The notes below the pieces were generated by a model. The model saw only the letters and a list, made by a program, of their open reading frames with translations, was not told the DNA's origin and did not search any database. DNA of 23,806 bases, from the IMG/VR virus record IMGVR_UViG_3300035670_001246, positions 1 to 23,806 of that record. The stretch is one strand, 5' to 3'. Position numbers and translations under genes: made by a program. Of this stretch, positions 1-18,932 are shown piece after piece (within the stretch, counting starts at the first letter, position 1; every line of letters begins with the position of its first letter). Source of the stretch: a virus.

Positions 1-988
1 CATTTGCGGCGTTTCCCTCGCCAAATGACGTGGAACCATACCCGGCGGATGTGTTGCCGCTCCCCATGGCTACCGCGACAGTGTTTGACGCAGTGCAGCC
101 CTGCCCAATGGCGACGGAGTTGGCGCCGCTCGCGGTGCAGCTCTGCCCGATGGCGACGGAGTTTGCGCCGCTCGCGATGTTGCTCTTGCCAAGCGAGACA
201 GACGACGTGCCCGACGCCGTACAGGTATCGCCTACGGCCATCGCGCGCAGACCCGAGACAGTGCAGTTATTGCCAGCCGCGAACGAGCCAGCGCCAGCCG
301 CGGTGATCGTGTTCTCCGAGCCAGCCGCGAACGAGTTCGCACCGGCGGCGACCTGCGCTGCGGCGGACCGCTGAAGCTGGAGATCGGTCGAGTAGTTTCC
401 ACGCGCATTGCCACCCGTCGCGGTGCCGTCCGGCATCTGCGCGGTGATCGCGCCCGTGCCGAGAGGCTGGAGCACGAGGCCGATGTTCGATGCGGCGAAC
501 GTGCCGATGCCGACCACGGTCAGCGTGGAGTATTCCGCCCCCGAGTAGGTCGCGGAGGAAAGGCGCGTGCCTTTGTAGTTGCTGGAATCGGTGAACGTGT
601 TCCAGCGGAAAAGCTGGCCCGAGGTGTCGATGCGGGCGCGTTCGGTGGCGTTGGTCAAAAAAGACATGTACCCACTCGCGCGCCCATCGCCATCGATGGC
701 CGTAAATGCGAGCGTCGTCGATCCGTTTTGCACCCATCCGAGGCGCGAGACGTTGCCCGTGCCGTTGATTAGGCTAATCGTGTTGTTGTTTGCCGCGAGC
801 GTCTGGACCTGAAACGGATACGCGGGAGTCGGGACGCCGACGCCGATGAAGTTTCCGCTCTGCGTGATGACCGAATCCCCCAGCGTCGTCCCCGAACTCC
901 ACCGCGGGATCGTGTCGGTGGTGCCGGAGCCGCCGACGGGGGTGCCGCCAGTCGTGGGAGGAGGGAAGATGTATTCGGGAGCTCCCAT
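1..988 (-). CDS. Tail fibre with YadA-head-like repeats (partial, cut by left edge)
   Basis: Open to the window edge: 329 residues are visible and the C-terminus is missing. The ATG follows the stop of the preceding gene by one base (TGACATG), with GGGGA about 6 bases upstream. The N-terminus is Pro/Gly/Thr-rich. Residues 22-60 contain TIPRWSSGTTLGDSVI and a GVGVPTPAYPFQV segment, a pattern I know from phage and bacterial trimeric fibre proteins that begin with a registration motif. Residues 211-329 are 14-residue repeats of the form x-x-C/N-T-A-S-G-A-N-S-V-A-I-G, the Hep_Hag/YadA-head type that folds as a trimeric left-handed beta-roll. Such proteins usually bind the host surface, and a C-terminal trimerisation or receptor-binding domain would lie beyond the edge. 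Cysteines 242, 256, 284 and 298 sit in register. Being last in the tail operon fits a fibre. Adhesive role is inferred; the repeat assignment is firm. Confidence 0.8.
   Translation of the reverse strand, partial: MGAPEYIFPPPTTGGTPVGGSGTTDTIPRWSSGTTLGDSVITQSGNFIGVGVPTPAYPFQVQTLAANNNTISLINGTGNVSRLGWVQNGSTTLAFTAIDGDGRASGYMSFLTNATERARIDTSGQLFRWNTFTDSSNYKGTRLSSATYSGAEYSTLTVVGIGTFAASNIGLVLQPLGTGAITAQMPDGTATGGNARGNYSTDLQLQRSAAAQVAAGANSFAAGSENTITAAGAGSFAAGNNCTVSGLRAMAVGDTCTASGTSSVSLGKSNIASGANSVAIGQSCTASGANSVAIGQGCTASNTVAVAMGSGNTSAGYGSTSFGEGNAAN
93..176. repeat. Two tandem 42-bp repeats inside the fibre gene
   Basis: Units 93-134 and 135-176 match at 39 of 42 bases (differences at unit positions 8, 15 and 30). 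Each unit encodes one 14-residue turn-repeat plus neighbouring register residues of the fibre. Flanking repeats are recognisable in protein but more diverged in DNA. The near identity suggests recent duplication or conversion within the gene. Confidence 0.85.
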
Positions 989-7510: not shown

Positions 7511-10500
7511 CTAATGCTTGGCTTGTTCGGTAATACGCTTGTTGAGCCCAGTCTTCAAGCCAACGACGAGGGCGATGTTCGAGAAGCGGTAGCCCATCAC
7601 ATTCTGGTCAACGACGCTCGGCGCGCTGGTCTGGGCGCCAAGCTGCATGAACTGACCCTTCTGGTACGAGAGATGGGTCTCGAGCTGCAGGACGCCGCCC
7701 TGGATGGCGGCAATCGAGCCGAGCTCCTGCTGCGTGAAGAGGACGTTCTGTAGCGCGCTCGGGTCGGTCTGAACGAGGAACGCAATCGGCGGGTATGCCG
7801 TTCCAGCGATTGGACGCGCGAGCAGCCGCGCGCGCTTTACGCGCTGAAACCCCTGCACCTCGTTGAGAGCGAACGGTGCCGTCACCCAACTGACCACCGG
7901 ATAGCGGAACGCGTACGTCGGCGCGTTGTTCTCCAGGCCGTCCACGTAGGACGAGCCCTGCTGGTAGACGGTTCCTCCGCCCGCCCACGCCGGGATGTAC
8001 CCAAGCGCGAACCACGGAGCGTTGTTGATGACCGTCATGGACGCCGTGCTGTTCTGCGATACGCTTCCGGTGCCGTTCAGATCCTGTGGCAGGTTCCAGC
8101 GGTACCAGGTGTTGCTGAGGTAGCTGTAGACGACGACCGTCGACTGCACCGCGTTGCTTACACGGGTCGTCGGCGCGCCCTGCAGGACGAAGTAGACCTC
8201 CTCGCTCTGCGGGTTGTGCGACGTCGAGACGACGTACGGGTAGGGCTGCAGGATGTCCCTGATCTTGTCGCCGATGGAGCGCACCTGCAGGTCCGGCGTC
8301 AGGATCTCGATGCTGCGCCCGGAGCGGAAGAAGATGCCGATGGGCGTCGCGATGACGCTTCGGGGGTCGGTGCATCCGATGCCGTGCGGCAGGCGCGTGG
8401 GCTCCGAGAGCGACGAGCTCTGCCCCGTCGCATCGGGCATCGTGCCGGCGACGACGTAGATGTCGTTCTCCTTGAAGATGAAGAGGTTCGAGTTCATCGA
8501 CGCGAGGCCGGTGACCGCTCCGCCCGCCTCGATGGTCAGCGTCAGCGTGTCGTTGAACCCTGGCGCGTCGGTCGGCGAGAGCTCCTTCGTGAACCACACC
8601 ACGGTCGCATCGTCGGCGCCGCCGATGACGAGGCGGTTCTGGTGGACGCACATGGCCTTGCAGCCCGGGGGCGCCACGTTGTCGAGCACGCCGCCTGTCG
8701 TGTACAGGTACGGCTCACGGAGCATGCCGTTGTAGTCCCCAGTCGGGCCGTCGAAGATGCCGTTGTGCGCGCCCGCATACGCCGGCGGTACTGGCACCTT
8801 GTGGATGTTGCAGACCACGAGCCCGCAGGGATTCTGGTCGATCTGTCCGAGGCCGACGCTCGCCGCATCGAACGGCCTCGACGCGTACGGCACGACGCCG
8901 CGCGAGGCGTTGCGAGGCACGACGAAGTCGTTGATCGGGTTCAGGAAGTTCTGCCACGGCATGCGGTACAGCACCGTGGAGTAGGGCTCGCACGTCGAGT
9001 ACGGCTGCAGCGTCACGCGGCGCGGGTCTTCCGAGGCTGCGCTGAGCCGGTTCGTGAGCTCGAGACGGGGCACGAAGAAGCCCCACTTGTACTTCGTGAC
9101 CAGGCCGCCCGCGCGGATGGCGCCGCGCTTCTCGCTCGCGGTCGGGTCAGAGGCAAGGATCTCCGCGTTGATGGTGTACTGAATCGGCGACGAAGGGGCC
9201 GAGCGCACCGCACGACCGGTGCCGTCCGCGTACTCGTAGCACCACGAGAGCAGGAAATTTCCGCCCGCCTCGGCCTGCGTGTAGTTGCTCTGCCGGTTGC
9301 CGCCGCTCGTCGAGTCGTTCGGGTTGGACCACCCCGCCGCTGCTCGCGGCGCCCACAGGAAGTAGGCGCTGTTGCCGTACTTCGGCGGAAGGTTCGCAGC
9401 GTCCGGCGAGAACCCGCTGCCGGTGTTCTGATACCGCCCGTAGTAGTGCGAGCCGTAGAGGCTCGAGCCGCCGTTTGTCGACGTCTTCGTCGCGTCGTTG
9501 AACTGCTGCACGCGCAGGTCCGCGTACACGGCCTCGAAGTTCTGCGACGGGTCGCCACCCCAGCGCGTCTGCTCCGCTCCAAAGTCGAAGTCGTACGGCG
9601 TGTTGTTGCTCACACGCATGCCCGACTCGTACAGAAAGAACGGGCGCGTGATGTTGTTCAGCAGGTATGCCGTTGGCGCGAGACCAGGACCGCCAAAGAT
9701 GGTCAGCGCCTTGAACGGGCGGACGTTGTCGTTGGCGAGCGCGAAGCGTTGCGCACCGCCATCACCCCAGCTGACACTGGTGAGGTCGCGCTGCGGCCAC
9801 ACGAGCATGCCGTGCTCGTTGCAGTTGACGCCGTCGAAGACCGACAGGATGCCGCCGTTGATGAACGTGTAGTCCGACATGCGGACCATCTGGCGCCAGT
9901 TCTGCGGCAGGTACTCGTAGTCGATGGCGAAGCATTCCTGCAGGCCCTTGGACGACGCATTGCGCAGGGCTCCGAGCGTGAACCCGGCGCTCGTGTACTG
10001 CAGCGTCGGCACGTTGAGCGTCGGCGCCGTCACGCGCATCATGTTCGCCGCCTCGACGAACATGCCCGCGTTGTTCGCGTACAGCGTTCCGTTGGCGCTT
10101 GGGTACGGCTGCGCTTCAAGGTCCGGGTTGCCTCCTGGCCACGAGATGGACGCCTCTTGCGTCTGCCTGAAGCGCAGGAGGAACGTGCTGGCCTGGCTGC
10201 CGTCACCCGCCGTCGTGGCCGCCATGTAGCAGCGTCCGTCCGCCGCGCGGTAGATGTCGCTGAGCAGACGCCATGGGCCACCGAGAGCGCACTTCAGCGC
10301 CGTGCTGGTGCCCGTCAGGAACGGCACGAGCGGGTCGTAGTACTTGCTCGACTGCTCCGAGTATCCGTAGACCTCGAGGAAGTTGTTGAGCTGGTGGGGG
10401 CTCGCTGCGCCGAACGGCGTGTCCCCCTGCGGGTTCGTCAGCGTCGTCGCCGAGCAGCTCGACAGCGCGATGATGTGGTTCTTCTCGTCCTCCTGCGCGA

Positions 10501-12691
10501 TGGCCCAGCGATGCACACAGTGCTCTTGCTGTCCGACGTAGTAGAACGACGTGTTCGCGGGGCGAGACACTGCGTCAGGGACGTCCGAGCCCTCTGGAAT
10601 TGTCGCCACGCCATGCGTCAGGTTCCACACCTGCGCGCCGGTCAGTGTCCCCGCGCCGATGCCGGGCGTACCTCCCGCAATCGACGCTACGACTGCCGAC
10701 CACGCCGTATTGACTACGCCGGCAAACGCGTACCCGGGCCCCGGACCCGCGAGCGGGTTCTCGATTGCGCACGCGACAATGGCGCCCGCCGCGTCTACGA
10801 ATACGGTCGCGGTCGCGATGACGTTGCCACCAATGATGACGTCGCAGCCCGTATGCGTGCCTGGCGTAAAGCCCGTGTTTACACCAGCCGCGTCGATGTC
10901 GAGTAGCTGCACCTGCCTGTCTGCCTGTGGCAGCGTTGACCAGTCGATCGGCAAATTGCCAGGGTAGAGGCGCGACGGACCAACGGTGAAGCCCTGCGCA
11001 ACGGACTTGAACCGGTTGTCGTATGCGTCGAGCCCGGTTGCGTTTTGCTCCGCGTACGGCCTGCTTGCTCGTGGCCTGAGTGTCAGGAATGCGGGCGTCG
11101 TTCCGAGCGCAGGAGCAAATGCGCTCGTCGCTGCGATGTCTGCAAAGTACGTCTGATCGGAGCCATCCACCAATCGGATGGCCATGGTCCACTCGCTGTT
11201 CGCCGACGTATTTCCGAAGGAGACATACCCCTCGGCGGGCCAGCCTGGCGACGAAAAGACCGACACGGGCGGCGTGCCGGTATACGCGTACACCGTCGTC
11301 TCAAGCGCCGAGCGCGTGTTCGGGCTGGCCGAGACGCGATCCGGGGCCGAGACCGTCGCCAGGACGTTCGTCAGGTTGTCGTTGGTCTGGAAGCCGATGA
11401 GCGGGATGTACTGGCCGCCGGACCAGTCGAGCGTCCAGGTGGTCGTGCCGTCGTTGTAGGCGCCCTCAAGGCGTCCAGACACCAGTTGGCAGTCGAGCTT
11501 GTCGGTCTCGACGGGGCCTTCTGCATCCGCCCAGTACCGGGCGATGACGCGCGCGGAGTAGCTGATGAACGACGTCCAGTTCAGCAGGAGCGGTGGAACG
11601 ACCGTCTCGCTGACGAATGGCCGCTGGTTGAGCACGATGCCGCGATTGGCGTACGGGCGGAATGCGGGAGCCACCAATGGTGCCGTCCGGTGCAGGATGT
11701 CCGGCACGGACGTCGTCGCGTTGACGGCCGCCGTCGTCGGGTCGACGTAGGCAAGGACGGCCTCGATGGCCGCCGGACCGGTTCCAACCGTGTCATCCTC
11801 GCAGTACACGTAGGCGATCGTTGGCACCTGCGCGTTGAGGCTCGGAGGCAGCGCGCAGACGTCGAAGTTCCGGTGCGTCTTGACGAGGGTGAACGCACTG
11901 ATCCTCGTCAGGTTTTGCGTTACGGTCCCGACGATCGCGCCTGTGTCCGGGCTGATGACGACGTACTCGATCTGGTCCGTCGCGCGGTTGTACCAGAACG
12001 CCATCGGCCACCGCGCCGACGCCGCTGACCCGCGCGTATCGAGCAGGATGACGCGCAGGTTCTGAGCACTCTGGGTGTAGGCGCCCGCCGTGTTCTTGAG
12101 GCGCGTCGGCGGTACGATGTACGCATCCGTGCCTACGACCTGCACGGAGTAGTAGACGCTGTTGCCGTCGCCGTTCTCCTGGTCAAGCATCATGCGGTCG
12201 GACGAGAGCTCCTGCCCGGTGCGCTTGCCCGTGACCCAGAAAGTGATTCGCTTGGTATCGTTGTCGTAGATGAGGCTATCAATCTCGATGATGCTGCCGC
12301 CTGTCGACGCGGTCGACACGAGCGTGCCGACGTGCTCGGGCAGGTCGTTGACCTCTCGCCAGCCACGGTCCGACTGTCCGCCCACCCAGTCGTAGAACTT
12401 GCCGCCGGCTGCCAGTACCGCGCGCGTGCCCGATGCCGACGAGTTGGACGAGATGGTCTCGATGTCGTTGGGCAGCGTCTGAAGGGCGCCGCCAGGGGTC
12501 GTGAACGTGAGCGCCGGTCGCTTGTCCGTCGTGCGCGTGACGAGCTCGAAGCCAGGACGCGAGTCGAACGCGCCCTTGACGACGGACTGCACGTTCACGA
12601 GCTCGAGCATCTCCGGTGGCTGCACCGAGAAGACGTCGTCGTCCTGGTTGATGCCACCCGCCAGCGGGACGTTTACGACGCGCTCTTCCAT
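7511..12691 (-). CDS. Giant tail nozzle / tail tubular protein
   Basis: A protein of 1726 residues, about twice T7 gp12 (794 aa) and over three times P22 gp10. I chose the ATG at 12691, which shares a base with the previous stop (TGATG) and has GGAG 8 bases upstream; a TTG one codon earlier is the alternative. Motifs that recur in phage nozzle proteins appear in order: GGINQDDDVFSVQPPEMLEL near residue 13, SVFDGVNCNEHG near 947, YADGTGRAVRSAPSSP near 1152, HQNRLVIGG near 1350, then FIFKENDIYVVAG, RSGRSIEIL and a C-terminal QGFQRVKRARLL. These define a beta-propeller-like tube end. The region of about residues 60-900 is beta-rich and largely unassigned, with a G-P-G-Y module at about 600-655. 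The protein would form the hexameric tube below the adaptor through which DNA exits. Family assignment rests on motifs remembered, not searched. Confidence 0.72.
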   Translation of the reverse strand: MEERVVNVPLAGGINQDDDVFSVQPPEMLELVNVQSVVKGAFDSRPGFELVTRTTDKRPALTFTTPGGALQTLPNDIETISSNSSASGTRAVLAAGGKFYDWVGGQSDRGWREVNDLPEHVGTLVSTASTGGSIIEIDSLIYDNDTKRITFWVTGKRTGQELSSDRMMLDQENGDGNSVYYSVQVVGTDAYIVPPTRLKNTAGAYTQSAQNLRVILLDTRGSAASARWPMAFWYNRATDQIEYVVISPDTGAIVGTVTQNLTRISAFTLVKTHRNFDVCALPPSLNAQVPTIAYVYCEDDTVGTGPAAIEAVLAYVDPTTAAVNATTSVPDILHRTAPLVAPAFRPYANRGIVLNQRPFVSETVVPPLLLNWTSFISYSARVIARYWADAEGPVETDKLDCQLVSGRLEGAYNDGTTTWTLDWSGGQYIPLIGFQTNDNLTNVLATVSAPDRVSASPNTRSALETTVYAYTGTPPVSVFSSPGWPAEGYVSFGNTSANSEWTMAIRLVDGSDQTYFADIAATSAFAPALGTTPAFLTLRPRASRPYAEQNATGLDAYDNRFKSVAQGFTVGPSRLYPGNLPIDWSTLPQADRQVQLLDIDAAGVNTGFTPGTHTGCDVIIGGNVIATATVFVDAAGAIVACAIENPLAGPGPGYAFAGVVNTAWSAVVASIAGGTPGIGAGTLTGAQVWNLTHGVATIPEGSDVPDAVSRPANTSFYYVGQQEHCVHRWAIAQEDEKNHIIALSSCSATTLTNPQGDTPFGAASPHQLNNFLEVYGYSEQSSKYYDPLVPFLTGTSTALKCALGGPWRLLSDIYRAADGRCYMAATTAGDGSQASTFLLRFRQTQEASISWPGGNPDLEAQPYPSANGTLYANNAGMFVEAANMMRVTAPTLNVPTLQYTSAGFTLGALRNASSKGLQECFAIDYEYLPQNWRQMVRMSDYTFINGGILSVFDGVNCNEHGMLVWPQRDLTSVSWGDGGAQRFALANDNVRPFKALTIFGGPGLAPTAYLLNNITRPFFLYESGMRVSNNTPYDFDFGAEQTRWGGDPSQNFEAVYADLRVQQFNDATKTSTNGGSSLYGSHYYGRYQNTGSGFSPDAANLPPKYGNSAYFLWAPRAAAGWSNPNDSTSGGNRQSNYTQAEAGGNFLLSWCYEYADGTGRAVRSAPSSPIQYTINAEILASDPTASEKRGAIRAGGLVTKYKWGFFVPRLELTNRLSAASEDPRRVTLQPYSTCEPYSTVLYRMPWQNFLNPINDFVVPRNASRGVVPYASRPFDAASVGLGQIDQNPCGLVVCNIHKVPVPPAYAGAHNGIFDGPTGDYNGMLREPYLYTTGGVLDNVAPPGCKAMCVHQNRLVIGGADDATVVWFTKELSPTDAPGFNDTLTLTIEAGGAVTGLASMNSNLFIFKENDIYVVAGTMPDATGQSSSLSEPTRLPHGIGCTDPRSVIATPIGIFFRSGRSIEILTPDLQVRSIGDKIRDILQPYPYVVSTSHNPQSEEVYFVLQGAPTTRVSNAVQSTVVVYSYLSNTWYRWNLPQDLNGTGSVSQNSTASMTVINNAPWFALGYIPAWAGGGTVYQQGSSYVDGLENNAPTYAFRYPVVSWVTAPFALNEVQGFQRVKRARLLARPIAGTAYPPIAFLVQTDPSALQNVLFTQQELGSIAAIQGGVLQLETHLSYQKGQFMQLGAQTSAPSVVDQNVMGYRFSNIALVVGLKTGLNKRITEQAKH

Positions 12692-13107
12692 CAACGAATC
12701 TCCAGCTGAAGCCTGACGGGGTCGAGAATATCATTCCCGTCCGCGTCCTTGGGCGCGATGTAGCGCAGGCGCATGATCTGTTGCCCAAGAGGCCCAGGCA
12801 CCGGGACGATCTGAAGGTTCGGTACTGCTGCTGGCGCGCTGCTCGCGAGCGGCGTGTTGGTCAGCACCTTGCCGATGTTGAAGCCGTTCGGCACGCGCCC
12901 GAGGTTGTGCGGGATGTCGACCGTCTGGCCCGGTCTGAACACGACGCCCTGGTCGGGCTTGTTCTTGACGATGCTCTTGACCGTCGTCTGGTTCGGGGGC
13001 CCGTTGCGCACCGACTCCGTCGTCTGACGCAGGACGTCCTGCACCTTGTCGAGCGCCTCGTTCCCCGAGGGAGCGGGAACGAACTGCTGCGGCTTCGTCT
13101 GCGCCAT
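12691..13107 (-). CDS. Small virion protein between adaptor and nozzle
   Basis: A protein of 138 residues. The ATG at 13107 has GAGG 6 bases upstream, running into the TAA stop of the adaptor gene. The N-terminal half is polar (PAPSGNEALDKVQDVLRQTT, then ESVRNGPPNQ). The second half holds PGQTVDIPHNLGRVPNGFNI, a His-x-LGR-x-P-x-G-F strand-turn motif that I have seen in many small podophage structural proteins encoded near the adaptor and nozzle. It ends with a short beta-rich segment (LQIVPVPGPLGQQIMRLRYI). No signal peptide or catalytic residues. Its stop overlaps the nozzle start, so it is probably made in step with the nozzle. Probably a connector or tail accessory protein; the exact role is unknown. 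Confidence 0.65.
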   Translation of the reverse strand: MAQTKPQQFVPAPSGNEALDKVQDVLRQTTESVRNGPPNQTTVKSIVKNKPDQGVVFRPGQTVDIPHNLGRVPNGFNIGKVLTNTPLASSAPAAVPNLQIVPVPGPLGQQIMRLRYIAPKDADGNDILDPVRLQLEIR

Positions 13108-13110
13108 GGC

Positions 13111-14079
13111 TTACCTCGCCCAGGGGAATGCGCGTCGGCTCAGGAGATGGACGTTGCGAATCTTCTCGGGCTGCGTCGCGTCGCGCTCGGCAGCGTGAAT
13201 CTCGAACCGCTTGAAGAGCTCGTCGCGGACGACCTTGATCGACGCCGCCTGCTCGATGCTCTCCTCCTTGAGGAGGCACTTGATCGCGGAGTCCTTGACG
13301 ACCCACTCGTCCCAGCCAGCGCGTCCATCGACGCGGTCGGTCGCGACCAGCATCTTCTGCGGCGCCGGGTAGTACCACACGCGGTAGGTGCCCGTCATCA
13401 TGGGAGCAATCGCCACCTTCTCGCGCCCGTCGAGGGTGAAGAGGCGGTACAGCGGAAGCGCGATGCTCCCCTGGTAGGTGTTCATCTGGCGGAGCGCGTT
13501 CTGCTGCTCCCATTGGAAGCGCCGCAGCGGGTTCCAAATGGCGTTGCCGGACGTCGTGTCGCTCGCCCAGACGCCCTTGCACTTGTAGAAGTCCGAGTCG
13601 AGCTGCACCGTTGCGAACCCGCCGGCGCCGAGGCCCTGCACCACAACGAGCGTGCTCGTATCAGTCGTCAGCGAGGCCGACTGGTAGCCGTTGCCGGCGT
13701 TCGTCAGCGTCATGCCCGTGATGGCGCCCGCGAGGGTCGTCAGCGTCACGGTCGCCGACACGTTCGAGCCCTGCAGGAGCGTTGCAGGGCCGTCGATGTA
13801 GCCCGCCCCAGGCACGAACGAGAGGATGTTGCGCACGACACCCGTGCGCCCATCGTTGAGAATGTCGAAGTCTCCTGCGCTACTGGCCGCACTCGAGGGA
13901 ATGTCGGTGTAGCGCAGGAGGTATTCCTGATCGAACATCACCATCCGGTCGTAGAGCTCAGCCCACGACTGGTTGATGTAGGACTGAAGCTCGGCGGACG
14001 TCACGAACTGCGAGTTCACCATGTCGGCTTCACGCCGCACGGCCAGTTCGAGCTCAGCAAGCGTCCGCGAGTATGCCAT
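13111..14079 (-). CDS. Head-tail adaptor protein (T7 gp11-position) with a beta insertion
   Basis: A protein of 322 residues with AGAGGA 7 bases before the ATG. The N-terminus (residues 6-60) reads TLAELELAVRREADMVNSQF, then VTSAELQSYINQSWAELYD and FDQEYLLRYTDIP. This helical pattern (E-L-x-x-x-I-N-x-x-x-x-x-L-Y-D) is common to short-tailed phage adaptors that ring the portal and connect to the nozzle. The matching second half (about 160-322) contains NPLRRFQWEQQNALR, YRVWYYPAPQKM, and a helical end with DSAIKCLLKEESIEQA and a VRDELFKRFEIHAAERD segment. Between them, about residues 85-157 form a Gly/Thr/Val-rich insertion bounded by GAGYIDGPAT and NAGNGYQS, resembling a decoration beta-module. 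Position between capsid and nozzle genes fits. Adaptor assignment is by pattern and order. Confidence 0.72.
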   Translation of the reverse strand: MAYSRTLAELELAVRREADMVNSQFVTSAELQSYINQSWAELYDRMVMFDQEYLLRYTDIPSSAASSAGDFDILNDGRTGVVRNILSFVPGAGYIDGPATLLQGSNVSATVTLTTLAGAITGMTLTNAGNGYQSASLTTDTSTLVVVQGLGAGGFATVQLDSDFYKCKGVWASDTTSGNAIWNPLRRFQWEQQNALRQMNTYQGSIALPLYRLFTLDGREKVAIAPMMTGTYRVWYYPAPQKMLVATDRVDGRAGWDEWVVKDSAIKCLLKEESIEQAASIKVVRDELFKRFEIHAAERDATQPEKIRNVHLLSRRAFPWAR

Positions 14080-14082
14080 CGG

Positions 14083-14337
14083 TCAGTCCTCTTCCTCTTC
14101 GTAGTCACCACCGCAGGAGGAGACGGCCTCCTTGAAGAGCTTCGCCGCCTTCGCCCAGTTGCCCTTTGCCTTGGCTTGCTCATAGGCCTGCAGCATCGCG
14201 CCGAGCTCGCTGCCCATCTCCATGCCCTCGCCTTCGTCTTCGGAACCCAGGGAGGGCCCGGAGGGTTTCTCCGAGCCCATCCCCGGCTTCTTCTTGCCGA
14301 TGGCGATCATGAGGGCCATGCCGCCTTTGCTTTTCAT
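14083..14337 (-). CDS. Short acidic protein between decoration and adaptor genes
   Basis: A protein of 84 residues of unknown function. The ATG at 14337 shares one base with the previous gene's stop (TGATG), so it is probably translationally coupled; a second ATG seven codons in (MALMIAIGKKKPG) has an AAAGG site and is an alternative start. The N-terminus is apolar and basic (ALMIAIGKKKPGMG). The centre is Gly/Glu/Ser-rich (GSEDEGEGMEMGSEL), followed by a helix (AYEQAKAKGNWAKAAKLFKE), then a run of acidic residues at the C-terminus (DYEEEED). The codons for that acidic tail hold the SD of the adaptor gene. It may be a minor virion or assembly protein; I do not recognise a family. Confidence 0.6.
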   Translation of the reverse strand: MKSKGGMALMIAIGKKKPGMGSEKPSGPSLGSEDEGEGMEMGSELGAMLQAYEQAKAKGNWAKAAKLFKEAVSSCGGDYEEEED

Positions 14338-14729
14338 CAGGCAGGCACCGAGCTGAGCGTGCAGGTGAACTGGATGAAGAGCGAGCCGGCCACGTCGACG
14401 TCGCCCGCGTTTCCATTGTCGACCTGGTACGCCTGAAGGACGCAGCCGGTCGTCGAGACGCTGGCGACGTGGAAAGCGATCTTCTTGGTCTTGTCGTAGG
14501 CGCAGACGTAGTTCGCGTGAACGCCAACCACATTCGACACCGTCGAGTTGTTGTCGAAGGTCACGTTGTACTGGCCGGCGACCACGCCGTCCTTCGCCAC
14601 CGTGATGCCCTGTCCGACAACGATGCCGGTCACGGCGCCAACGGCGTCGAGCGACACGCGGGTCGCGAGCGTCGCCTCTTGGACGATGTTGGTCCCCTTC
14701 TGGGGGTACAGATACCGATTCAGTGCCAT
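14337..14729 (-). CDS. Probable capsid decoration / small head protein
   Basis: A protein of 130 residues directly after the capsid gene, with an excellent AAAGGAG site 7 bases before the ATG. It is Val/Gly/Thr/Ala-rich and predicted all-beta. Residues about 30-75 (VGAVTGIVVGQGITVAKDG, then AGQYNVTFDN and VVGVHANYVCAYD) resemble a small phage structural family in which a G-x-G-x-x-x-x-K/R-x-G-x-G-x-Y-x-V-x-F/L strand pair is followed by a GVxAxY turn. Proteins of this size and place commonly decorate the capsid outside or form head fibres. No hydrophobic segment. It ends one base into the next gene. The decoration role follows from place and composition; a head-completion role is possible. 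Confidence 0.6.
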   Translation of the reverse strand: MALNRYLYPQKGTNIVQEATLATRVSLDAVGAVTGIVVGQGITVAKDGVVAGQYNVTFDNNSTVSNVVGVHANYVCAYDKTKKIAFHVASVSTTGCVLQAYQVDNGNAGDVDVAGSLFIQFTCTLSSVPA

Positions 14730-14734
14730 GTTCG

Positions 14735-14754
14735 GGCTCCTTTCTCAGGCAGCC
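14735..14754 (-). promoter_or_regulatory. Possible hairpin that covers the decoration-gene SD
   Basis: On the minus strand the 27-base gap after the capsid stop can fold as GGCT(G)CC / GGAGCC with a single bulged G and a TGAGAAA loop. The right arm is part of the AAAGGAG SD of the next gene. Such a fold could tune the ratio of the small head protein to capsid protein. It is short, so chance is possible. Confidence 0.25.
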
Positions 14755-14756
14755 GA

Positions 14757-16073
14757 TCAGGCGCCGAAGTTGGTGAGAACGATGTTCGCGCCGGGGTTGT
14801 TGCAGATGAACTGACCGTAGTGGCCGAAGCGGACTTCGTACTGGTCGTTGTCGTTGACGCGCAGGTAGTCGTTGTTGTCGTAGTCGAGCATCTGCGGCGC
14901 CGGCCCGAGCGTCGAGAGTTCCCAGGACGACATCTGAAGCATGAACGCCTTGTTGCGCGGGCAGAAGGGGTTCGCCACGATGTTCATCGGGCCGTTGGCG
15001 CCGTCGTACTGGATGCTCTTGAACGAGATGCCAGCGATGTTCGATTGCACGCGGTCGTACACGATGTCGGACCCAAGAGCCTTCTTGAGGTTCTGGAGGT
15101 CGAGCGGGTTGACGAAGATGGTGTCCGGCGAGCCGACGCCCTGCACGAGCACGCGCGCCTCGGCCTCCATGAGCGCCTCGTTCATCGGAAGGCCGGTGAC
15201 CGAGAAGTTCTGGCCCGCGAGACGGATCGGGTCCGAGGTGCGGTTGAGGCCCCAGAACGTGGTCGACGTCACGCTCGACGGGATCCACGCCTGGATGCCG
15301 GTGACGACGCCTTCGGCATACCCATTCGCCGCGCCCGTGCCCGGCGCGGTGATCGGACCGTCGCCCGAACGCACGACGCGGTCGGTCGCCGCAATCGCGC
15401 CGGCCGTCAGGTTCACCACGCCGCCGACGCCAACGACCGTGATCACGCCGGTCTGGCGGTTGATGCCCGAGACGTAGACGCCGTCGCCCGCGGCAGTCGT
15501 CGCCGGGGTGGTGGCGCGCGCGACCTGCGGAGGAGCGCCCGCCGGGAAGAAGTCGAGCTTCATCCCGAGGTTGAAGTAGACGGCGTCCGCCGGCGTCGCG
15601 AGCGTGAAGGTGGAGCTCGTCAACGAGTCGATGATGCCGCGCGTGCCGGTACCGTCCCCGAAGAGCTGGAACTCAAGGTCGGCGAGCTCGTTGGTCGAGA
15701 TGCCGTCCGTCTCGTTGTTCCAGAGGTCGACGAGCGCGCCGCTCGTGCGGACCGCCGCCTTCATGGTCTCGCCGTCCATGCGGAGGAGACCGTAGTGGCG
15801 CGTGCGATAGACCTGGAAGCGGTTGTAGGTACCGCCACCGCCATTGGTGCCGGACTTGGCCACGCCCTGGGCGATGCTGAAGTTGCTCGAGCTGCCCTGC
15901 GGGCGCTCGTTCTGGAGCGCGACCACGCGGAACTCGCCGTCGAAGTTCGTCGTCTTCTTGACGAGCGAGAGGAGCGGGAAGTTCTTGTAGAGGGCCTGGG
16001 GAATGGCGCCGTCCGGGTACTTGATCTTGAGGATCGACTTGACGGCATCGAAGGTCGGGTTGGTAAACGGCAT
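14757..16073 (-). CDS. Major capsid protein (HK97-type fold)
   Basis: A protein of 438 residues, a usual length for a major capsid protein. AGGAG lies 8 bases before the ATG at 16073. The N-terminus (NPTFDAVKSILKIKYPDG, then FPLLSLVKKTTNF) would be the N-arm; EFRVVALQNERPQGSSSNFS is the E-loop-like stretch. Residues 125-148 (STNELADLEFQLFGDGTG) match the spine helix and turn common to many phage capsids. Residues about 150-245 are a Thr/Val/Gly/Ala-rich insertion. The C-terminal half has TIFVNPLDLQNLKKALGSD, ISFKSIQYDGANGPMNIVAN and PFCPRNKAFMLQMSSWELS, the P-domain/A-domain pattern of capsids of this group. It follows the scaffold gene, as expected. It would form the icosahedral shell. The identification rests on pattern and order; no search was run. 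Confidence 0.85.
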   Translation of the reverse strand: MPFTNPTFDAVKSILKIKYPDGAIPQALYKNFPLLSLVKKTTNFDGEFRVVALQNERPQGSSSNFSIAQGVAKSGTNGGGGTYNRFQVYRTRHYGLLRMDGETMKAAVRTSGALVDLWNNETDGISTNELADLEFQLFGDGTGTRGIIDSLTSSTFTLATPADAVYFNLGMKLDFFPAGAPPQVARATTPATTAAGDGVYVSGINRQTGVITVVGVGGVVNLTAGAIAATDRVVRSGDGPITAPGTGAANGYAEGVVTGIQAWIPSSVTSTTFWGLNRTSDPIRLAGQNFSVTGLPMNEALMEAEARVLVQGVGSPDTIFVNPLDLQNLKKALGSDIVYDRVQSNIAGISFKSIQYDGANGPMNIVANPFCPRNKAFMLQMSSWELSTLGPAPQMLDYDNNDYLRVNDNDQYEVRFGHYGQFICNNPGANIVLTNFGA

Positions 16074-16084
16074 GACTGAGACTC

Positions 16085-17056
16085 CTAATTGGTTGCTTGC
16101 GAGGTTGCTTTCTTGACTGCGGCCACCAGAGCTGCCCTCTGTTCGTCAGGAGAGAGCAGCCCAAACGGCTTGCCAGCAGTCCGCGATTCGCTGGCAGCCT
16201 TCGTCGTGAGGGTCTTCGCCGGGGCCTTCTTCCCGGCAGGGGCCTCGCCCTTCTGCTCCGCGCCGCCGCCAAACCGCTTCACGCGGTCGGCGTACTTCTT
16301 CTCGAGCGCGCGGATGACCTCGATGTCCTCGGGCGGCTCGCCGTAGCGCTCCTCGTGGCGCTCGGCGACGCGAAGCGCCTCGTCCCAGAGGCTGTCGACG
16401 TCGTCCGAGAACATGTTGAAGAGGGTCGGGTACTCCGCCTTCGTGACCTGCGTCAGGAACTCGTTCCGGGCCTGCGCCAACTGCTGCTGCTGCTGATGCG
16501 CCTGACGCTCGGCCATGGCCTCCTCGCGCTCCCTGCGCAGGGCCTGGATCTCCTTCTTGACCTCGTCGAGCTCGCCGAAGGGGACGTCCATGTTCCCCTC
16601 GCGCATGCCGGCGTCGATGAGGTCTTGGAAGTCGAACCCGAACTCTTGGAACGTGCGCGCAGGGGCGCGGCGCAGTTTCTTGAAGAGGTCCTCGACAACC
16701 TGCTTCTTCGAGTACTCGATGTACTCGGCCGCTTTCTCGAGTTTGGCCTCGAGCTGACGCGCGTAGTTCTCCGCCTTGCGCACGCGCGACTCGGCGGCCT
16801 GCCGAATGGCGAGCACCTGCTCGGCGAAGTCCTCCTGCGCCTCGGGCTCCTCGGCCTCTGCTTCGGCGCCGCCTTCGGCTTCACCCGCCTCGGCCTCGAC
16901 GGTCTCCTCGCCTTCGCCGGACGCATCGACCTCGGGCTCGCGCGTGGGCTCCGGGGTCTCGGGCTCCTGCGCGGGCGCCTCCTCGGCCTCCGGCTGACTG
17001 GAAGAGATGACGGTATCCGCTGCTGCGCGCATCCGCGCGACCAAATCGTCAGACAT
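16085..17056 (-). CDS. Capsid scaffolding protein
   Basis: A protein of 323 residues. Its start lies within the last codons of the portal gene (8-base overlap, different frame), with GGAGG about 6 bases upstream. Residues 20-80 are strongly acidic and Pro/Glu-rich. Residues about 78-205 are Glu/Lys/Arg/Ala-rich coiled coil with a Gln run (HQQQQQL) near 188. Residues about 255-323 are basic (KKYADRVKRFGGG, PAGKKAPAKTLTTK, VAAVKKATSQ). An acidic N-terminus, helical middle and basic C-terminal capsid-binding tail, placed between portal and capsid genes, is the classic scaffold layout. It would guide procapsid assembly and leave before or during packaging. No protease motif is present, so removal is probably by exit, not self-cleavage; that is inference. 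Confidence 0.8.
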   Translation of the reverse strand: MSDDLVARMRAAADTVISSSQPEAEEAPAQEPETPEPTREPEVDASGEGEETVEAEAGEAEGGAEAEAEEPEAQEDFAEQVLAIRQAAESRVRKAENYARQLEAKLEKAAEYIEYSKKQVVEDLFKKLRRAPARTFQEFGFDFQDLIDAGMREGNMDVPFGELDEVKKEIQALRREREEAMAERQAHQQQQQLAQARNEFLTQVTKAEYPTLFNMFSDDVDSLWDEALRVAERHEERYGEPPEDIEVIRALEKKYADRVKRFGGGAEQKGEAPAGKKAPAKTLTTKAASESRTAGKPFGLLSPDEQRAALVAAVKKATSQATN

Positions 17057-18932
17057 TCATGGCCTCCATTGCCTGTGCCGGCGGCTCTTCCGCTGGCGGT
17101 GCTTCTTCCACGGGCGGCGGCGCCGCCTGCTGGGCGGCAGCAGCCTGCTGCGCCGCGGCTTCCATGCGCGCCTGCTCGATGAGCGCCTCGATCTTCGTGA
17201 CGTAGTCGTCGAGCACCTCGATGCGGTCCTCGGTCACGCCATCGACGCGCGCCTTGTTGTAGTGCTTGCGCGCGCGGTCGTACGCGATGGCGAGGTCGAG
17301 CCGCTTGTCGGGGTCCGGGTAGGGCTCGCCACGCAGGATGAGCGACACGGCCTTGTCGACCACGTCGAGGTCCGCCGTCTCAAGGTCGCGCTCTGAATCG
17401 ATGTCGCCGATGTTCAGGAGGTTCGCGACGACGCGACGGTCGGTGATGACCTTGCGGTCGACGAGCTCGAGCACCTCTTGGAACAGCGCGGCCTTGGTCT
17501 GCGAAAGCGCGCTGATGGGCTCGCAGCGGAGCGTGAACTCCTTGCGGTCCATCTGCACCTGCGACCAGTTGATGCGCTCGAGCTGGCCCGAGCCTGGCGC
17601 CAGGATTTCGACGTCGATGCCGTCCTCTGCCGCTTCCTCGCACGCGTCGACGATGAGCCAGCCGATGTCGACGTGGAACTGGCGCACGGCCTCGTGAGCG
17701 ACGCGGAAGCGCGCGTCTTCCATGTCGTCGTAGACCGTGAGCGCGCGCCCGGACGCCTGCCGCAGGCCCGCAGGCAATACTGACTGAGCGGCCAGTTCCG
17801 AAATGCCCTCGTACCGGAGCATGTTCGACGCGATCATGTCCTTGTACGCGTAGGTGTCCGGGTGGACCGGCTGCGGATTGAAGACGACCGGCGGCGCGCC
17901 CTCGTACTCGAAGATGGTGCCGACATCGTTGTCGATCTTCGTCTTCGTCATGGTGCCGGCTTGCACCGCGATGTGCGAACCGCCCATGAGGTTGTGCGCG
18001 GTCTGGATCTTCTCGCTGAGGAGGTCGTACTCGTCCTGCGGGGCCGCGAGCTCGAGCGCCATCGACGGGCCGTAGAACCCCGACAGCACCGTGTTGGTGC
18101 GGCAGAACGCCCAGCCGAAGTTCGTCGAGCGGCGCCACGGCGTCGCCTGCAGGGTTCCGGTGCTGAGCGCGATGACGCGCAGCCCGTCCTTGGCCTTCGA
18201 GCCAGAAGCGAGATGAATGCCCTCGTAGACCAGGATTTGGTCCGAGTAGCGCGACGAGTTCATGTAGTTGGAGTCGTCGTCCGCGGGCTTCGGGGCCGCG
18301 AGGATGGCCTTCGTGCGCTCCGCCGAGCTTCCGAAGAGCGTCGTGTCGTCTCCGCCGAACGCTTCAAGCACGACGCCGCGATCCATGTAGCAGCGGTGGT
18401 AGAGGCAGCGCGGCGTGCCGTAGCGCGCCTCGGGCTCGCTCACGAGCATGTCGAAGGCGGGCACTCGCTCGATGACCACCTGCCGGTCGTCGCCGATGTA
18501 CACCTTGACCATCGCGATCCCGAAGACGAGCTCGTCGAGGAGCAGCTGCGGGTAGATTTTGGAGTACTGCGCAGCCACGAAGGCACCCGCCAGGAAGCGA
18601 TCCAGCCGCTTCGCTCGGTACCTTTGCAGGAAATCGCCTCCTACGGTCACCGTGCTCGGGAGCGGCATCTGCCGCGCGAGCTTGGCCTGCATCGTATGGA
18701 TGGCGTTGCGCGCCACGTTGAACGACACCCGGTCGTCCCAGACGTTTCGCACCGGCATGCCGAACATTTTCAGGTCGGTGCCGTACACCTCCGCCGCGCG
18801 GGTCCACATTTGACGGCGATACGTCGTCTCATTGCGGATGGCCGTGACCGCTCCCACGAGGGCGACGTACGGATCCTCCTTCTGCTGATGAAGGAGCCAC
18901 CATGCGTCCGTGGTTTCGGAGATACCCGCCAT
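17049..18932 (-). CDS. Portal protein
   Basis: A protein of 627 residues, between T7 (536) and P22 (725) in length. The ATG at 18932 is the first start after an in-frame TAA; the SD is poor. The N-terminal part has WDDRVSFNVARNAIHTMQAK, the helical N-rich motif of many podovirus portals, and VFGIAMVKVYIGDDRQVVIE. A conserved segment at about residues 372-405 reads YEGISELAAQSVLPAGL then SGRALTVYDDMEDARF, the G-I-S-x-x-x-A-Q-x-x-x-P-x-G-L-x-x-x-S-G-x-A signature of portals of this class. The C-terminus is an Ala/Gln/Pro/Glu-rich tail (about 580-627), probably disordered. It would form the dodecameric ring at one vertex for packaging and ejection. Flanked by terminase and scaffold, as in most tailed phages. 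Confidence 0.9.
   Translation of the reverse strand: MAGISETTDAWWLLHQQKEDPYVALVGAVTAIRNETTYRRQMWTRAAEVYGTDLKMFGMPVRNVWDDRVSFNVARNAIHTMQAKLARQMPLPSTVTVGGDFLQRYRAKRLDRFLAGAFVAAQYSKIYPQLLLDELVFGIAMVKVYIGDDRQVVIERVPAFDMLVSEPEARYGTPRCLYHRCYMDRGVVLEAFGGDDTTLFGSSAERTKAILAAPKPADDDSNYMNSSRYSDQILVYEGIHLASGSKAKDGLRVIALSTGTLQATPWRRSTNFGWAFCRTNTVLSGFYGPSMALELAAPQDEYDLLSEKIQTAHNLMGGSHIAVQAGTMTKTKIDNDVGTIFEYEGAPPVVFNPQPVHPDTYAYKDMIASNMLRYEGISELAAQSVLPAGLRQASGRALTVYDDMEDARFRVAHEAVRQFHVDIGWLIVDACEEAAEDGIDVEILAPGSGQLERINWSQVQMDRKEFTLRCEPISALSQTKAALFQEVLELVDRKVITDRRVVANLLNIGDIDSERDLETADLDVVDKAVSLILRGEPYPDPDKRLDLAIAYDRARKHYNKARVDGVTEDRIEVLDDYVTKIEALIEQARMEAAAQQAAAAQQAAPPPVEEAPPAEEPPAQAMEAMNV

Follow-up and report, generated by a model that had tools for sequence, protein, structure and literature searches.

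Genes of the structural block and positions of the two module copies

The window analyzed here, by which we mean the whole stretch of 23,806 bases making up the virus record, contains a block of structural genes on the minus strand and comes from an uncultured, short-tailed phage. The genes are arranged in the order terminase, portal, a 323-aa gene, major capsid protein, a 130-aa protein, adaptor, a 138-aa protein and a 1727-aa protein in the nozzle position, after which further large proteins follow. The adaptor (head-tail connector) gene (13111–14079, minus strand; 322 aa) is of the SU10 type, because its product matches PF24175 (SU10_adaptor) above the curated Pfam threshold (28.7 bits, cut-off 27) and its AlphaFold2 model resembles the solved adaptors of cyanophage A4, SU10, GP4 and Pa223 (Z 10.1–10.6); the match to 7z4f_H (Z 10.4, rmsd 3.5, 189 residues) has the fold of a helix bundle with a fibre-dock beta-domain. 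The 1727-aa protein (7511–12694, minus strand), whose gene comes after the adaptor gene with a single gene between them, is probably the nozzle, to judge from gene order and size, and matches PHROG 511 and 3287, families labelled 'internal virion protein' and 'virion structural protein'. The intervening 138-aa gene (12691–13107) overlaps the start of the nozzle gene and its product carries a VDIPHNLGRVPNGF stretch, which we take to be a motif of fibre-type proteins. The 130-aa gene (14337–14729, minus strand) occupies the slot between capsid and adaptor.

The original prediction described a similar beta-module with G-x-G-Y turns in both adaptor and nozzle, and the residues on which it drew are present in both proteins. 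The adaptor module spans residues 80–162 (13594–13842, minus strand) and includes GAGY at residues 91–94 and GNGY at 129–132. Its strands are predicted at residues 80–89, 97–103, 106–116, 119–127, 141–147 and 155–162, in a model that is confident throughout the module (block-mean pLDDT 87–94). This copy is an insertion into an SU10-type adaptor, because solved adaptors of about 200–230 aa align over 185–193 of the 322 residues (the best six matches are 207–227 residues long); compared with SU10 gp11 and the adaptors of cyanophage A4 and GP4, the window adaptor has some 85–90 extra residues, and these are the module. The module region is kept in all 40 distinct adaptors among the matches listed.

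The nozzle module spans residues 596–693 (10616–10909, minus strand), with NTGF at residues 606–609 and the stretch GGNVIATATVFVDAAGAIVA...GPGY running to residue 655 (GPGY 652–655). Strands are predicted at residues 597–599, 612–621, 624–633, 638–646, 666–668, 671–674 and 688–690. The model, made for residues 540–735, has a mean pLDDT of 57, with block means of about 73–84 in the first strands and about 60–76 after them. The proposal that the module is inserted in both proteins thus holds for the adaptor, whereas the nozzle protein has no solved homologue by sequence with which to compare it. The literal G-x-G-Y pattern describes the adaptors well, with two copies in 25 of 31 distinct modules and at least one in every one of them, but it is kept (as G.G[YF]) in only 5 of 28 nozzles, a set from which fragments shorter than 700 aa were excluded. 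A regular expression improvised for the module core matched 23 of these 28 nozzles and missed clear copies, including the window's own, and was dropped.

The module tolerates insertions. In five of the 40 distinct adaptors (L041, L053, L056, L067 and L071; e.g. L056:12046-13992) its second half contains about 320 additional residues that look propeller-like by eye and bring these adaptors to twice the length, about 650 aa; in four of the 28 nozzles (L069, L062, L075 and L072; e.g. L075:11160-11573) it is interrupted by a nested segment of YKIATVGSTDFTLIGASANTV...VFVATG type. The long-insert adaptors L056 and L071 match Pfam only through the adaptor family, and the L056 insert matches no family in Pfam, NCBIfam or PHROG; the nested nozzle segment presumably resembles another repeat of phage proteins. 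The nozzles vary in other ways as well. That of L045 has an extra GAGY...GSGY module at residues ~485–560, upstream of the shared one; that of L028 (L028:10045-16443) is 2133 aa long and has some 400 additional residues following residue 60, which show no BLASTP similarity to the ~320-aa adaptor inserts; and that of L072 is split across two overlapping frames (13057–16893 and 16827–18488), which may reflect a frameshift, a real split or a sequencing error.

Similarity of the adaptor and nozzle copies

The similarity of the two copies is confirmed to exceed chance, even if it is barely visible when the two sequences from the window are taken by themselves. The adaptor segment aligns better than shuffled segments (P = 0.0105) and does so in a position-specific manner: its top Smith-Waterman match in the whole nozzle is at residues 608–689 (score 60, against 39 for the best elsewhere), and a profile of 31 adaptor modules finds the same place first in the nozzle family (28.6, P 0.0058; second 14.8). 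In 22 genomes with both modules (L071 omitted), nozzle window 589–686 ranks first of 34 by mean score, so that residues 589–693 are the best adaptor-module match within the nozzle by Smith-Waterman, profile and 22-genome test alike; the five long-insert adaptors were excluded from the module profiles and from the 22-genome test. The alignment predicted to rise above random background does so by these measures, but BLASTP does not detect it.

Two glycine- and alanine-rich beta hairpins of similar composition could, of course, come to look alike by chance or convergence, and four observations are in keeping with this. First, composition-adjusted BLASTP of adaptor against nozzle gives no match. 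Second, direct comparison of the adaptor-module profile (A1) with the nozzle-module profile (A2) yields P 0.012 and an HH probability of 3.6%; A1 omits the modules of L035 and L044 as well as some rows that are identical or nearly so, and A2 omits L071, the four nested-segment nozzles, L048, L052, L025 and L040. Third, among 85 control windows, to which the ejA family (one relative) contributed none, nozzle 589–686 comes top at 23.61 and the unrelated nozzle window 393–490 ties with it at 23.60, all others scoring at most 14.9; the tying window has 19 columns where gaps make up most of the window sequence, and the extra L045 module lies nearby. Fourth, small beta-barrels readily match one another. 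Two results argue the other way: the mean score over the 22 genomes is 39.1, compared with 34.7 +/- 0.6 for shuffled nozzle modules, and a third protein matches both copies with E-values of 1e-7 to 1e-9. We consequently consider chance or convergence improbable.

This third protein lies in the capsid-adaptor slot, the occupants of which differ greatly across the relatives, from about 130 to 350 aa; the copy in the window is without the module. In four of 34 distinct relatives the slot holds a protein of about 350 aa with a textbook copy of the module (GSGYTNGVHTNV...). The profile of this head-slot copy matches the nozzle family with Prob 93.5 and E 2.2e-7 and the adaptor modules with Prob 94.2 and E 1.1e-7. 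When it serves as bait for 90 windows drawn from ten protein families, with the five long-insert adaptors excluded from the module profiles, it draws a response only from nozzle 540–686 (best E 1.5e-9) and adaptor 50–196 (best E 1.4e-7), each through two overlapping windows; the fifth of the 90 windows is at E 0.014. The head-slot protein of L010 matches no PDB chain, and tblastn with the whole adaptor, the L071 nozzle module and the L010 head-slot module gives no match in the phage collection at the limits used. This intermediate, which matches both adaptor and nozzle, is the strongest evidence for a shared module, and in this respect the prediction that two neighbouring tail proteins carry one and the same module is supported.

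The predicted strands also follow one another in equal order around the two turns in the adaptor and nozzle models, each module having about six strands. Folding both segments, as had been suggested, agrees on strand order but is otherwise weakened by the poor nozzle model and by low Z-scores. Adaptor residues 76–162 resemble an unrelated domain, the C-terminal barrel of EF-Tu/SelB (Z 3.1–3.3), and so do residues 51–156 of the nozzle model, corresponding to nozzle residues 590–695 (Z 2.1–2.9); structure matches of the nozzle model reach only Z 2.0–2.9 and those in BFVD are weak (best E 5.4e-3). Over the module range the listed matches are low-Z EF-Tu/SelB barrels with no Ig fold among them, which does not count against an Ig-like fold. 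These barrel matches support a shared fold but are not proof of one, because the Z-scores are low, and they may reflect a common topology.

Relatives in other phage proteins and history of the copies

Dpo31, the tailspike of phage Carin-1 (PDB 28lx, 28mg and also 8ck1), is the single solved protein reached by the adaptor module profile at a low E-value (residues 446–506, E 0.0014); the whole-adaptor profile matches residues 445–546 (E 0.0035). The first of these matches lies inside the 434–536 insert, domain D3*, and the second nearly inside it. This domain is described as a protruding, Ig-like insert and is compared by the authors with sugar-binding domains (PMC13317679), and its carrier is a beta-helix tailspike, unlike adaptor or nozzle. 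The nozzle module profile finds no solved structure up to E 10, Dpo31 D3* included, nor does a profile of the nozzle C-terminal part, and phmmer searches of PDB chains with adaptor and nozzle give no credible match.

Among proteins of known phages the module is more widely represented. The family phrog_6005 matches 11 of the 31 adaptor modules, the L010 head-slot protein and stretches of the L045 and L071 nozzles, and phrog_5342 matches seven of the 31, the L010 and L002 head-slot proteins and a stretch of the L071 nozzle (~2367–2441); the window's own nozzle module has no PHROG match. Members of the A1 profile match PHROG families of head closure, baseplate wedge, head decoration and tail fibre proteins, and the L056 copy matches sheath, neck, baseplate and other known-phage proteins (120 of 50,697 records, E up to 1). 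G-x-G-Y modules of the Hc2 and wedge proteins of T4-like cyanophages, and of the Xanthomonas phage X1 tail sheath, match by sequence, although their carriers differ. The module has no Pfam match in the adaptor, the nozzle or seven other carrier sequences, and no NCBIfam family in the carrier sequences. Ig-like domains such as Big_2, FN3 and PKD are well known for their promiscuity among phages. The SU10 nozzle, gp17, is described as containing Ig-like domains (PMC9509320), beta-domains within a nozzle protein like the predicted one of the window; no sequence link was found between these and the window nozzle module. A general shuffling of fragments between the tail proteins of phages has already been described (PMC10684548), and in a survey of titles on the motif and on inserted adaptor domains, none treats the module in adaptors.

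Since the adaptor and nozzle genes are neighbours, the module could have been copied recently from one to the other within a lineage. The behaviour of the L071 nozzle module, which groups with the head-slot modules (90/77) apart from the other nozzles in a tree of 62 modules (four nested-segment nozzles and adaptor L053 omitted), indicates that replacement may happen somewhere. Three lines of evidence count against recent copying. First, the DNA of the two window modules has no similarity (P 0.218). Second, adaptor-nozzle pairs from the same genome resemble each other no more closely than other pairs do (P 0.197, 22 genomes). Third, adaptor and nozzle copies lie apart on the tree, in which a branch with weak support (57/28) has the 35 adaptor modules to one side and the nozzle modules need two changes. 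We regard recent copying as very improbable. These results instead speak for copies that are old and diverged, apparently acquired and then inherited rather than shuffled recently between neighbours, and the shuffling originally suggested would apply only in this older sense.

Possible roles of the module

We favor, as reasonably probable, the interpretation that the module is a beta-domain of about 80–95 residues belonging to a promiscuous family of tailed-phage surface domains. Its layout would be a strand, a G-x-G-Y-like turn, a three-strand meander containing ATATV and GAI, a second turn and two strands, with one copy in the beta-domain of the adaptor that forms the fibre dock, one in the middle of the nozzle and, in some relatives, a third beside the capsid gene. 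It would have been acquired long ago, followed by vertical descent within each protein, and would be exposed on the virion. The least certain part is what it does there: it may bind a host surface polysaccharide or receptor weakly, or it may widen the fibre dock between adaptor and nozzle. The likely role is that of an exposed extra domain that would bind surfaces or dock fibres, since either weak host binding or docking would suit an exposed module, and the 'decoration' function first suggested would be plausible.

Alternatively, the module could be a purely structural spacer that stabilizes the dodecameric adaptor and hexameric nozzle or clamps the fibres, with no host contact. The adaptor fold match would place the insertion in the beta-domain that is reported to dock fibres in SU10 and P-SCSP1u (PMC9509320, PMC10575957), contacts of the Ig-like domains of the SU10 nozzle are described as stabilizing the tail (PMC9509320), and the presence of the module region in every distinct adaptor among the matches listed is consistent with such a part. 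However, the family also occurs in head decoration, tail sheath and tailspike proteins, which have no fibre socket, and a general surface role fits this distribution better. We consider the spacer a realistic but doubtful possibility. A further proposal is that the adaptor and nozzle modules act as a pair, surrounding the tail with a composite binding surface that would be either a fibre socket or a site for the host receptor, and this seems to us unlikely. In Vibrio phage OWB, the tail tubular proteins TTPA and TTPB are reported to bind the host receptor, and the authors link them to the fibre site and the nozzle (PMC7241545).

The module is real yet familiar in kind, being one of several interchangeable add-on domains of tailed phages. 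What the present phages add is a single module in three closely encoded virion proteins of one phage group, with further copies elsewhere in sheath, baseplate, neck and tailspike proteins. As no Pfam or NCBIfam model matches the module in the carrier sequences searched, a family model would annotate many proteins now listed as 'virion structural proteins'. The window and its relatives also provide a case in which receptor binding by the adaptor and the nozzle could be tested, comparable to the binding reported for the Vibrio phage OWB proteins TTPA and TTPB (PMC7241545).
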